A stretch of 45,111 nucleotides of DNA from Acidobacteriaceae bacterium (GTDB lineage Bacteria; Acidobacteriota; Terriglobia; Terriglobales; Acidobacteriaceae): assembly GCA_003142015.1 (NCBI GenBank), contig PLOI01000049.1, positions 23,763 through 68,873 on the forward strand. The letters are read 5' to 3'. Under the pieces are notes generated by a model. It saw only the letters and a program-made list of their open reading frames with translations. It did no database searches and was not told where the DNA came from. Positions 23,870-36,553 of the stretch are shown one piece after another. A program made the position numbers and the translations under genes. The stretch's first letter is position 1. Each line of letters starts with the position of its first letter.

Positions 23870-24131
23870 CGTGCCTTTCGAAACCCTCGAGGTTGTTTTT
23901 TAGACTAGCATGGTCCAAAATGCCGTCTGTGACGGCAGTCACATTACGAAGAATCGCGTTCAGATTGCCTGTCGCCACACAGCACGGAACGATACTATAC
24001 CCTGGCTTTCGCCGAGCGAGGCCAGGGAAGAAAATATGTTTTGCTCTGCAGTTTGATTCGCGTTTGTGGAACGCCTGCGAGGCCGGGCGCTTGCAAATTC
24101 GAGTTGGGAGTGTTTCAATCTGGTTATTGAA

Positions 24132-24202
24132 ACAGGGGTGCTCCACGAGGTGGGGCTGAGAAATACCCTAGAACCCGATCCGGATAATACCGGCGTGGGA
24201 AG
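24132..24202 (+). ncRNA. TPP (thiamin pyrophosphate) riboswitch
   Basis: acaggggtgctccacgaggtggGGCTGAGAaataccctaGAACCCGATCCGGATAATACCGGCGTGGGAAG: THI-box signature elements in order. Confidence 0.97.
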
Positions 24203-24245
24203 CTTTCGTAGCCGAACGGCCTTCTTCCTCGAATTTCAGCGTTCT

Positions 24246-31714: not shown

Positions 31715-32334
31715 CAGAGCAGTCCCTTCGTTGAAGGCAGCATCTTTCCTAATTGTTTGTCGCGGGAGCAGGCCACGCGCAGCGCGCGCGCGAAGGCTTT
31801 GAAAATGGCTTCGATCTTGTGGTGATTGGAGCGGCCATACATGGTCTTGACGTGAACGTTGGCGCGTGCTCCGCGCGCAAAGCCTTCAAAGAAGTCCGTA
31901 ACCAGTTCGGTTTGCAGGTCGCCGACCAGGCGCGTGCGGACTTTGGTTTCGACGGCAAAGGCCGCGCGTCCGCTCAGGTCCACGGCCGCAATCGCGAGAG
32001 TCTCGTCCATCGGCATGAGGAAGTAACCTGCGCGCAGAATGCCGCGTTTGTCGCCGAGGGCTCGATCGAATGCCTCGCCGAGCGCGATGCCAACATCTTC
32101 GACTGTGTGGTGCTGATCCACATCGAGGTCGCCGTCGCATTTGAGTTCGAGATCGAAGGCGCCGTGGCGTGTGAACAGCTCCAGCATGTGATCGAAGAAG
32201 CGAATGCCGGTGGCGATTTTGTATTGCCCGCTGCCTTCAATGGTGAGTTTGACGGCGATGCGCGTCTCGGTGGTGTTGCGAGCGAAACTGGCGGTGCGCA
32301 GGACAACGGGTTTGGCCTGTTTCTTGGGCGTCAC
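31714..32334 (-). CDS. hisB: HisB, imidazoleglycerol-phosphate dehydratase
   Basis: [45 protein letters not shown]. Confidence 0.98.
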
Positions 32335-33428
32335 TGAGCGCCTCCTTTCATGTTGAGTGTGGCCAGTACTTCATTGAGCGCGAACGCAGCCTGGCGCATC
32401 TGTTCTCGCGTTCCAATGGTGATGCGCACGCGGCCATCGCAGCCTGGATCGCTGGAGCGGTCGCGGACGAGTACGCCGGCGGCGCTCATGTGGCGCGTGA
32501 ACTCCTTGTGCTGCGCGCCGATTTCAATGAGAACAAAGTTGGCTTGGCTGGGCCAGCGGCGAACTCCGGCTTGATCGAGCGCGGCCTCGAACTCCGCGCG
32601 CGCGGTTAGAACTTCGGAGACGTACCAATCGATATATGCGGCATCTTCGAGCGCGGGCGGCAGGCACGCCAGAGCAAGCGAGTTCACGCTGTAAGGAGAG
32701 AGCACACGCTTGACCCAGCGCATCAACTCCGCCGGACCGGCTAAGAGGCCGAGGCGCAATCCGGCGAGGCCATAGGCTTTGGAGAAGGTGCGCGCGACGA
32801 TGAGATTGGGCACCGTGCCGATGAGATCGATGACGGTTTCGCCGTGGAAGTGGAAATAAGCTTCATCGACCAGCAGTACGGCTTGAGGAGCGCGCGCGGC
32901 AATCTCAAGCAATTGAGCGCGCGTGGCCGCAGAGCCGGAAGGGCTGTTGGGGTTGGCGATCGCGATGATCTTGGTGCGCGGCGTGACGGCTGCAAGCAGG
33001 CGCTCGAAGGGAAATTTCAGGTCGTCTCCGGCAAGCACCGAAACCACGCGGGCATCGGTGGCAGAGGCATAGATCTCGTACATTGTGTATGTCGGAACGG
33101 GCAGCAGGAGTTCGTCGCCGTCTTCAAGGAAGGCCTCAAAGAGCACGTGAATGGCTTCGTCCACGCCGTTGGTGAGCGCGACCTGCGTGGACGCAAGGCC
33201 GAGATACGCGGCGACGATGGCCTCGACCGGCTCGCGCTCGGGATAGCGCGTGAGGCTTCCCGCACTGATTCTGCCCAGCACCTCGCGCACTTTGGGCGAG
33301 CAGGCCACTGTGTTTTCGTTGAAGTCCAGGCGCAGCGTGTCGCGGCAGCCGAGCGGAGGGTGATACTCCTTCATGGCCTGTACACGGGCGCGCGGCACGG
33401 GGATGACATTTGTTGCGGCTTCAGTCAC
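32331..33428 (-). CDS. hisC: HisC, histidinol-phosphate aminotransferase
   Basis: PLP aminotransferase fold; [21 protein letters not shown]; probable GTG start ([11 protein letters not shown]) overlapping hisD 3' end by 8 nt. Confidence 0.95.
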
Positions 33429-34698
33429 GAGTCCTCCTCCTATGTAAGCGTGCGCGAATGGATTCGGCGTGGGCGGTGAGTCCTTCGGCTTCGGCCAGCA
33501 GGACAGCGCGCAGGCCGAGTGTGCGCAGACCCTGTGACGAATACTGCTGCACGGTGATGAGCTTGACGAAGTCGTTGACGCTGAGGCCGCCGCGGACACG
33601 CGCCATGCCGCCGGTGGGCAGCGTGTGATTGGGCCCGGAGATGTAATCGCCCATGGGCTGCGCGGACCAGCGACCCACGAAGACCGATCCCGCGTTCTGC
33701 ACCCAATCGAGATCGCTTGCGGAGTCTACGGTGAGGTGCTCGGGCGCCAGGCGATTGGTGATGGCGCGGGCTTCGTCCAGGCTTGTTGCAATTATGGCCA
33801 GGCCGTTGCGGTCGAGGGCCTGGCGCGCGACGGGATTGTTGCGGCTGCGCAGCTTAGTTTCGGCAATGACCTCTTTGGCGAGATCGGCGCGCGTGGTGAT
33901 GAAGATGGCCAGCGCCTCCGGATCGTGCTCGGCCTGCGCAACCAGGTCGGAGGCAATGCAAGCCGCGTTGCCGCGTTCGCTGGTGACGACAATCTCCGTG
34001 GGACCTGCGAGCATGTCGATGGCGCAGTCGAAGGCGATGAGACGCTTGGCGCCGGTGACATAGAGATTGCCGGGGCCGACGATTTTATCTACACGCGGAA
34101 TGGATGCAGTTCCATAGGCCAGCGCGGCAATGGCGTGCGCACCGCCGAGGCGGTAGAATTCGGTAATGCCGAGCAGGTGTGCGGCTGCGAGAGTTTCCAA
34201 TGCGGGTTTCGGCGAAACCACCGCAATGCGCTCGACGCCCGCGACCTGCGCGGGAACGGCGGTCATCAGCAGCGTGGACGGCAGCGGATGACGGCCGCTG
34301 GGCACATAGCAACCCACCGATCCGAGAGGCCGAACAAGCTGACCTGTGGTGAGGCCGGGGATAGGCTCATCGCTGAATGAGGCGGGCAGTTGGGAAACGG
34401 CAAAGCGGCGAATCTGCTCAGCCGCTTTTGTGAGCGCTTCTTGCATCACGGGAGTGATTGCGTTCCATGCAGCGGCCATCTCGTCGGGAGTAACGCGCAG
34501 AGAGCTCGCGCCAGCCAGGCCGTCGAATTGAGCGGCATAGCGGAGCAGTGCGCGGTCGCCCTGTTTGCGCACGTCGGCGACGATACGCTTGACGGCGGGC
34601 AGCACGGTATCGAGCGCCGCGCCGCCACGCCGTTCGAGAGCGGCGAGGATTTCCGCCGTTTGTTCCGCGCCGCGTCCTTTGGTCCGGATCGTCTTCAT
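33421..34698 (-). CDS. hisD: HisD, histidinol dehydrogenase
   Basis: VGCYVPSGRHPLPSTLLMTAVPAQVAGV, PTEIVV, DYISGPNHTLPTGG. Confidence 0.98.
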   Translation of the reverse strand: MKTIRTKGRGAEQTAEILAALERRGGAALDTVLPAVKRIVADVRKQGDRALLRYAAQFDGLAGASSLRVTPDEMAAAWNAITPVMQEALTKAAEQIRRFAVSQLPASFSDEPIPGLTTGQLVRPLGSVGCYVPSGRHPLPSTLLMTAVPAQVAGVERIAVVSPKPALETLAAAHLLGITEFYRLGGAHAIAALAYGTASIPRVDKIVGPGNLYVTGAKRLIAFDCAIDMLAGPTEIVVTSERGNAACIASDLVAQAEHDPEALAIFITTRADLAKEVIAETKLRSRNNPVARQALDRNGLAIIATSLDEARAITNRLAPEHLTVDSASDLDWVQNAGSVFVGRWSAQPMGDYISGPNHTLPTGGMARVRGGLSVNDFVKLITVQQYSSQGLRTLGLRAVLLAEAEGLTAHAESIRARLHRRRTRD

Positions 34699-34712: not shown

Positions 34713-35588
34713 CTAGAGCACGACTTTGTTGAGCGGGTATTCGACGATGCCCGTTGCCTTCGCTGCTTTGAGTTTTGGGATCACGTCTCGAGCAACACGC
34801 TCATCGACGATGGTGTTGACCGCGACCCAGTCGGAGTTGCTCAGCTGGGAGATAGTGGGCGAGTTGAGCGCGGGCAGCACGGCGAGAACCGCATCGAGAT
34901 CGGCGCGCTGCACATTGAGCATGAGGCCCACCTGCGATTGCGCATCGATGGCGCCGCGCAACATGAGCGCAATCTGATCAAGTTTCTCGCGCTTCCAGGG
35001 ATCGGCGAGAGTCTTCTTGCCGGCGATGAGATGCGTTTCGCTTTCCATGACCGTGTCGATGATCTTGAGGTGGTTGGCCTTGAGCGAGCTGCCGGTCTCA
35101 GTAACTTCGACGATGGCGTCGGCCAGCATAGGCGGCTTTACTTCCGTTGCGCCCCAACTGAATTCGACCTTGACATTGACGCCCTTGGCGGCGAAGTAAC
35201 GCTTGCTGACTTCGACCAATTCAGTAGCGACGATTTTGCCTTCGAGATCTTCGGCCTTTTCAAAGCCGCTGCCTTCAGGAACCGCGAGTACCCAGCGCAC
35301 CTTGCGGCGGCTCTGCTTGGCATAAGTGAGAGTGGTGACGCTGGTGACAGCAAGGCCGCTTTCGACGACCCAGTCGATGCCGGTGAGTCCGGCGTCGAGC
35401 ACGCCGTGGTCAACGTAACGAGCCATCTCCTGCGCGCGAATCAACATGCACTCAATTTCCGTGTCGTCGATGGATGGAAAGTAAGAGCGGCCGTCGGCGT
35501 AGATGTTCCAACCGGCGCGCTTGAAGAGAGCAATGGTGGCATCCTGCAAACTGCCTTTGGGAATACCGAGTCTCAGCTTGTTAGCCAC
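34713..35588 (-). CDS. hisG: HisG, ATP phosphoribosyltransferase, long form
   Basis: [18 protein letters not shown]; 291 aa with C-terminal ACT-like extension; no hisZ nearby. Confidence 0.97.
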
Positions 35589-35964
35589 GAGTTATCTCCT
35601 TATTTGCGCCGGATGGCTGGTTTGCGCCGGCCACGGTCAGTGGTTTGGTGAAGCAACTGACCGTGCCCTCGTGGCATACGAGTCCGTCGCCTTCGACAAC
35701 CACGCGAAATAACAGCGTGTCGTTGTCGCAGTCGGTTGCGGCGGAGACCACGCGCAGGCGGTTGCCGCTGGTTTCGCCCTTCATCCACAGCTTCTGGCGC
35801 GTGCGGCTCCAGAAGGTTACAAAGCCGGTCTCAAGGGTTTTGGCATAACTGACGGGGTTGAGAAAGCCCAGCATCAGCACTTCGCCGGTACTCGCATCCT
35901 GCACAATGCCGGGCGCGAGGCCGTCCATCTTGTCGAAATCGATTGTGGGGTTTGTATTGCTCAT
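35581..35964 (-). CDS. hisI: HisI, phosphoribosyl-AMP cyclohydrolase (no HisE fusion)
   Basis: [65 protein letters not shown]; 127 aa. Confidence 0.97.
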
Positions 35965-36004: not shown

Positions 36005-36037
36005 AAAAAGCCCGCTGGCTGAGTCGCCGGCGGGCTT
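36005..36037 (-). terminator. his attenuator terminator (3:4 hairpin)
   Basis: Minus strand AAGCCCGCCGGC-GACTCA-GCCAGCGGGCTTTTT: 12-bp stem with one mismatch plus U-tract, between leader ORF and hisI. Confidence 0.92.
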
Positions 36038-36093
36038 GGGTGATTCTTTAGATCTCTCTGGCCGTTTACTTCAGGCCATGGCAGTCCGCCGGC
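36026..36093 (-). promoter_or_regulatory. his antiterminator pairing (2:3)
   Basis: 36086-36093 (minus GCCGGCGG) is perfectly complementary to 36026-36033 (minus CCGCCGGC), the 5' arm of the terminator. Confidence 0.8.
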
Positions 36094-36143
36094 ATGGAAG
36101 TTCCATGATGATGGTGGTGACCGTGATGGCGGCTGCTCTGCAT
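36066..36143 (-). CDS. hisL: His leader peptide [25 protein letters not shown]
   Basis: ATG at 36143-36141, TAA at 36068-36066; 8 His codons in 25, seven within an 8-codon stretch; followed by attenuator hairpins and hisI. Confidence 0.93.
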
Positions 36144-36152
36144 CTGATTTTC

Positions 36153-36181
36153 AGGTTAAGGGAAAACTGGGCGTATGTCAA
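36153..36181 (-). promoter_or_regulatory. Candidate housekeeping promoter of his operon
   Basis: Minus strand TTGACA (36181-36176), 17-nt spacer, TAACCT (36158-36153); weak -10. Confidence 0.55.
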
Positions 36182-36238
36182 ATGATTGACTTGCGGGCAA
36201 GGTGCGGCAGGGCAGAGAATGGAGCCTTGCGAGCAAGG

Positions 36239-36553
36239 ATGCGATTTACGGCAGCAGCGGCTGTGGTGCTGGGCGTTTGCCTGGCGGGGAAGGCGCAATA
36301 TCAGGATCGAGACACCCGCGGAGTGGCCAAAACATCGGCAACGGCGCCTCAGCCGGAGGCGCGCGTAGACATCAATCATGCCAGCGTGGATGAATTGTTG
36401 AAGGTTCCCGGTATGACGCGCAGTTGGGCCGGACGCATTGTTCGCTTCCGGCCATACCGCACCAAGCAGGACCTGGTGGAGCACGGCGTGGTGACCAGCC
36501 AGGTTTACGACCGCATCAAGGATTACGTGATCGCGCACCGAGAGGCGCAGTGA
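36239..36553 (+). CDS. ComEA-like helix-hairpin-helix protein
   Basis: Signal peptide, then VDINHASVDELLKVPGMTRSWAGRIVRFRPYRTKQDLVEHGVV. Confidence 0.8.
   Translation: MRFTAAAAVVLGVCLAGKAQYQDRDTRGVAKTSATAPQPEARVDINHASVDELLKVPGMTRSWAGRIVRFRPYRTKQDLVEHGVVTSQVYDRIKDYVIAHREAQ

Follow-up and report, generated by a model that had tools for sequence, protein, structure and literature searches.

A predicted ribosome-mediated attenuator of histidine biosynthesis operons in Acidobacteriota

Described attenuators and the his leader of the window

Ribosome-mediated attenuation of the his operon is a textbook mechanism established in enterobacteria, where the leader (hisL; Rfam family RF00514, His_leader) combines a run of His codons in a short ORF ahead of the operon with mutually exclusive antiterminator and terminator structures. 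Predicted His leaders of Firmicutes, located ahead of his genes (PMC9413887) and of hisS/hisZ in bacilli (PMC2965389), share the His-rich peptide, the antiterminator and the terminator, but are comparative-genomics predictions within narrow groups of another phylum. In Sinorhizobium meliloti, the transcript of trpLE(G) starts at the AUG of the trpL leader and carries a ribosome-dependent terminator/antiterminator switch (PMC7298713). For Acidobacteria, a survey from 2010 listed almost no predicted attenuator with a known function (PMC2965389), and a full-text literature search on acidobacterial leader peptides and his attenuation returned no described case; as subscription papers lay outside the scope of this search, priority is uncertain.

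The locus described here, from a soil acidobacterium, lies on the minus strand of the analyzed stretch of 45,111 nucleotides, referred to as the window, in which a 25-codon leader ORF is followed after 28 nt by the hairpin AAGCCCGCCGGCGACTCAGCCAGCGGGCTT with a U tail and, about 40 nt further on, by hisI. The earlier note on this DNA, made from the sequence alone, had proposed a His-rich leader peptide, three RNA segments and a terminator ahead of hisI; re-reading of the sequence confirmed the ORF at 36143-36066, and segments 1, 2 and 3 as well as the terminator were all found where they had been placed. The downstream genes were identified with NCBIfam, and the features of the locus are as follows:

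36176-36181, minus strand: -35 box, TTGACA, as read from the sequence
36153-36158, minus strand: -10 box, TAACCT, with a 17-nt spacer to the -35 box and 9 nt to the leader ATG
36066-36143, minus strand: leader ORF with seven His in codons 6-13, without a Shine-Dalgarno sequence
36128-36135, minus strand: segment 1, CAGCCGCC, tentative, with the conserved core CCGCC at 36132-36128
36086-36093, minus strand: segment 2, GCCGGCGG, which forms the 5' arm of the antiterminator and lies within the leader ORF past the His run
36059-36078, minus strand: UGGCC/GGCCA hairpin enclosing the leader stop codon in its loop, kept among close relatives
36026-36033, minus strand: segment 3, CCGCCGGC, common to antiterminator and terminator
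36005-36037, minus strand: intrinsic terminator (3:4), AAGCCCGCCGGCGACTCAGCCAGCGGGCTTTTT, with a U tail, based on sequence, fold and pairing conservation
35581-35964, minus strand: hisI, phosphoribosyl-AMP cyclohydrolase, first gene of the operon (NF000768, 126.7 bits, cut-off 126)
34713-35588, minus strand: hisG, ATP phosphoribosyltransferase, long form (TIGR00070, TIGR03455)
33421-34698, minus strand: hisD, histidinol dehydrogenase (TIGR00069)
32331-33599, minus strand: hisC, histidinol-phosphate aminotransferase (TIGR01141), matching from residue 70; its true start is probably downstream of the listed GTG

The terminator has a predicted energy of -21.4 kcal/mol, and RNA folding showed the window leader to be more stable than its dinucleotide shuffles (z -3.0). 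While a simple terminator scanner returned only the plus-strand echo of the leader hairpin, the minus-strand terminator, the stem of which has a 1x1 mismatch, is visible in the fold. Across both strands of the 45 kb, the leader is the sole ORF of 8-45 codons with at least five His within eight codons, and 200 kb of control loci (trpE, leuA, ilvB and hisS of relatives) contained a single such ORF, which no terminator follows. A divergent ComEA-like ORF (36182-36553, plus strand) starts with an ATG that directly abuts the his leader promoter at its -35 box, and a TPP riboswitch (RF00059, 64.8 bits) is present at 24124-24218 on the plus strand of the window.

Sequence and predicted folding thus supply a His-codon ORF, a terminator before the first gene and an antiterminator that excludes it. 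Based on this anatomy, its conservation, codon-level selection for His alone, the coevolution of the 2:3 and 3:4 pairings and the link to his genes, we interpret the element as a ribosome-mediated transcription attenuator of the his operon, at a probability of roughly 0.93; the response to histidine, the stalling of the ribosome and the role of the 1:2 pairing are deduced from sequence. In the proposed mechanism, transcription would be initiated from a strong promoter, either directly at the leader AUG or beside it. As long as charged tRNA-His is sufficient, the ribosome would clear the His codons and move onto segment 2 and the stop, 2:3 would not form, segment 3 would pair with segment 4 and transcription would terminate before hisI. 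If charged tRNA-His runs short, the ribosome would stall on the His codons and leave segment 2 free to pair with the emerging segment 3, whereupon no terminator would form and hisI-hisG-hisD-hisC would be transcribed.

Compared with the described systems, the window leader reaches 27.1 bits against RF00514 (E 0.018), which is below the gathering score of 49; no Rfam model, RF00514 included, reached its gathering score in the loci of 20 relatives, and RF00514 was not among the matches listed at E up to 5 for 20 more loci. In contrast to hisL, the first gene is hisI rather than hisG, the leader ORF has no Shine-Dalgarno sequence and is probably leaderless, and segment 2 lies inside the ORF. Unlike the Firmicutes predictions, the acidobacterial element spans many families of one phylum and comes with a swap test for coevolution. 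The trpL system differs in responding to Trp ahead of trpE(G) in Alphaproteobacteria, and its transcript start is reported, whereas that of the acidobacterial his leader is predicted. Overall, the kind of mechanism is known, while the phylum, the sequence family and the leaderless his format appear to be new.

Conservation and RNA pairing among acidobacterial leaders

A HisI search of species genomes yielded 80 loci, the best-matching segments of which reach up to 94% identity. As the named loci belong to Acidobacteriaceae (e.g. Terracidiphilus, Occallatibacter, Acidicapsa and Granulicella), the window DNA is acidobacterial. Two loci, for which the upstream DNA ends at a contig edge, were left out, and the readable set consists of 78 loci plus the window. 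Conservation of the His run in relatives, on which the earlier note had staked its reading, held for 78 of 78 readable relatives, and all 79 leaders, including the window, combine a His-rich ORF, a terminator and hisI. Among the cultured carriers of the element are Terracidiphilus gabretensis S55 (L054), Occallatibacter savannae AB23 (L050) and Acidicapsa dinghuensis 4GSKX (L060). In an alignment of 76 sequences, base identity at codon positions 1, 2 and 3 was.98,.95 and.81 for His codons, with both CAC and CAT (CAU in the RNA) in use across the leaders, as compared to.84,.81 and.80 for the remaining leader codons. Codon-level selection is hence seen for His alone, and outside the His run no protein-type codon-position signature was found, which argues that His is kept as codons and the remainder, where it is kept, as RNA. 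Although the peptide end MPADCHGL is conserved among close relatives, indels between the His run and the stop have rewritten it in five leaders (L027, L037, L058, L075, L079), in all of which the segment 2 RNA is intact. A Pfam search with the leader peptide gave no match, and neither did a search of the plasmid collection.

The antiterminator pairing 2:3, the second feature that had been predicted to be conserved, is paired in 97.8% of cells of the close set and in 98.1% of those of a broader family set, where three pairs have changed on both sides; its covariation in the family alignment (.281) exceeds that of shuffled (.210) and slid alignments (at most.137), and other families keep the pairing through compensatory changes. 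For the terminator (3:4), 98.1% of cells are paired and two pairs show two-sided changes. Coevolution was further assessed by a swap test comparing own with swapped partners in 26 leaders from many genera and families, using 20,000 permutations. The own 2:3 duplex reached -22.9 kcal/mol versus -18.5 kcal/mol for swapped partners, a value matched in 0 of 20,000 permutations, and the 13 leaders from outside the family likewise gave 0 of 20,000. As a control, the zone reaching to the last His was paired with segment 3, and here own and swapped partners did not differ (p.38).

Pairing 1:2 fared less well. The earlier note had described an 8-bp segment 1, of which the five-bp CCGCC core is kept (90% of cells paired), while the outer CAG:CUG part is mostly private to the window; there are no two-sided changes, and the swap test on the zone reaching to the first His gave p = 0.012. 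In the window, 2:3 is moreover predicted to outcompete 1:2 before segment 4 is made, with 8.3 versus 1.2 expected pairs when no ribosome is present. A 1:2 protector helix is therefore the weak part of the scheme and proposed only tentatively. An untranslated window leader, in which 2:3 would form, may consequently not terminate efficiently, and poor termination without translation would be a departure from the textbook attenuation scheme. The UGGCC/GGCCA hairpin around the stop codon, found in close relatives only, is paired in 88% of cells with two-sided changes at three of five pairs, and may shorten the 2:3 loop while the ribosome is stalled upstream.

Folding of masked leaders predicted that a ribosome on any of the His codons allows 2:3 to form (10-11 expected pairs) ahead of the synthesis of segment 4, whereas masking of segment 2 abolished 2:3 and masking of everything up to the stop left only 3:4. 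Equilibrium folding of the full masked leader was discarded as proof of the switch: in the finished RNA, 3:4 is preferred in most species even if a ribosome occupies the His codons, and the switch becomes apparent at the stage before segment 4. Thus, the switch must be kinetic, and timing matters. In most leaders, segment 2 ends 17 nt 5' of the stop codon, so that a ribosome on the stop codon would abut rather than cover segment 2, and blocking would require steric hindrance or ribosomes still on the preceding codons. The passage of the ribosome over segment 2, besides its stay on the stop codon, may therefore set the outcome.

Distribution and alternative explanations

A covariance model, R1, for which only leaders of the close set were used, was run over 396 Acidobacteriota genomes; its matches point to his operons. 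Within the own family, 43 of 44 sampled genomes carry both hisI and an R1 match (E 1.3e-6 or better), and all 33 inspected matches lie ahead of hisI. The only own-family genome in the sample without hisI (G210), which may be incompletely assembled or auxotrophic for histidine, is also without an R1 match. Outside the family, eight of the ten whole-genome matches at E up to 2e-6 precede hisI-hisG-hisD or hisG-hisC. Weak matches were accepted only if a his gene adjoined them and its His leader was readable, and matches not adjoining his genes (L122, L123, L125-L130) were discarded.

A census of 60 further loci revealed terminator-bearing leaders, which precede hisI of hisI-hisG-hisD operons in families f16, f25, f45, f47 and f59 and precede hisG in f68 and in f18; the best 15 matches of R1 in 360 kb of loci from other families all fell on his leaders, two of these matches being opposite-strand echoes of the terminator. 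The upstream DNA of 20 more operons, mostly of other gene orders, held two probable His leaders with terminators, one directly ahead of hisD (L256, genome G002, f5) and one in f26 (L257, G230), and otherwise none, and five hisG-containing loci of other order with more than 300 nt of upstream DNA each had no leader. Judged by these sequences, his genes are preceded by the element in roughly a dozen Acidobacteriota families besides the own one, and its presence is broad but patchy and mostly bound to hisI-first operons, being usual with hisI-hisG-hisD operons and absent from most hisG-first ones. Since the trpE, leuA, ilvB and hisS loci of nine genomes from the genus and order showed no comparable leader, the device appears specific to his biosynthesis among the operons tested. 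In the own genus, leuA-like matches of two genomes (L208 in G399, L211 in G398) contain one in-frame TGA in the matched stretch. A divergent hisG-hisC operon of f68 (L169/L117, G198), with 33-34% identity to the window proteins, has its own His leader, MTVIRHHHHHGNKLQDLMLLR, with a weaker predicted 2:3 duplex.

These data also bear on other explanations of the locus. The ORF could encode a functional small His-rich protein, acting in metal binding or as a trans-acting leader peptide like peTrpL, with the terminator ending only its own transcript. The peptide is indeed His-rich, its end is conserved in close relatives, and attenuator peptides can act in trans, as reported for peTrpL (PMC7298713), but the missing codon-position signature outside the His run, the tolerance of frameshifted ends while the segment 2 RNA is kept, the coevolution of segment 2 with the terminator arm and the location ahead of his genes make such a protein very unlikely, although a side role of the leader peptide in trans is conceivable. 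Less probable still is a leader RNA sensing something other than tRNA-His charging by means of an aptamer, a protein or a T-box, with an incidental ORF: conserved RNA does extend beyond the core, e.g. in the GGCCAGAGAGATC stretch and the hairpin, but this extra conservation ends with the close relatives, whereas other families retain the run of His codons, and neither a riboswitch nor a T-box of Rfam matches the leader.

Certain his attenuators act by sequestering the ribosome-binding site and not by termination (PMC9413887), and an alternative hairpin might accordingly control the translation of hisI and not its transcription; however, a U run follows the 3:4 hairpin in the aligned members, and this hairpin is 40 nt from hisI in the window and farther away in others, leaving control of translation with a probability lower again. 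Finally, short ORFs and hairpins are common, yet a His-rich ORF meeting a fortuitous terminator by chance is refuted by the conservation, the coevolution, the R1 matches on his leaders and the rarity in control loci, and was given practically no weight.

Promoter placement and the start of the leader

The attenuator reading gains a further aspect, absent from the earlier note, from the placement of the promoter close to the leader ATG. The motif TTGAC lies 37-39 nt 5' of the leader ATG in 71 of 79 leaders, and the end of the -10 box of the best promoter within 60 nt upstream lies 8-10 nt from the ATG in 111 of 125 leaders, with the f18 leader (17 nt) as a clear exception. The mean promoter score for these 60 nt was 9.4 versus 6.2 after shuffling, and Shine-Dalgarno-like words were rarer before the ORF (3/125) than in control windows (6 and 15). 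Given this spacing and the lack of a Shine-Dalgarno sequence, the leader ORF is probably leaderless or nearly so. Internal his promoters of C. glutamicum have the -10 box 7 +/- 1 nt before the start site (PMC3896937); if the same spacing holds, the 5' UTR would comprise ~0-3 nt, and based on the -10 position transcription is predicted to start at or within ~3 nt of the leader ATG. An apparently leaderless start of this kind agrees with predictions for three Acidobacteria genomes, in which leaderless genes make up 13% on average (PMC3160421).

Taken together, we consider it likely that Acidobacteriota possess a widespread and old his attenuator, the leader peptide of which is translated from a leaderless mRNA. 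The attenuator itself would extend his attenuation, established in enterobacteria and predicted in a few other groups, to a large and poorly studied soil phylum; if its leader mRNA is leaderless, the ribosome would load at the very 5' end of the nascent RNA, with RNA polymerase and ribosome coupled within the first codons. To our knowledge, there is little work on transcription-translation coupling in Acidobacteriota. As the switch needs a ribosome close behind RNA polymerase, its conservation constitutes genomic evidence for coupling, which would be close across much of the phylum and is made testable by the leader. The apparently leaderless leader would also represent a compact sensor suited to transfer into reporters. 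One family would have two attenuators in tandem: locus L177 (G043, f18) contains, at oriented positions ~1014-1390, two His-rich ORFs with their own terminators ahead of hisG, a possible double attenuator.
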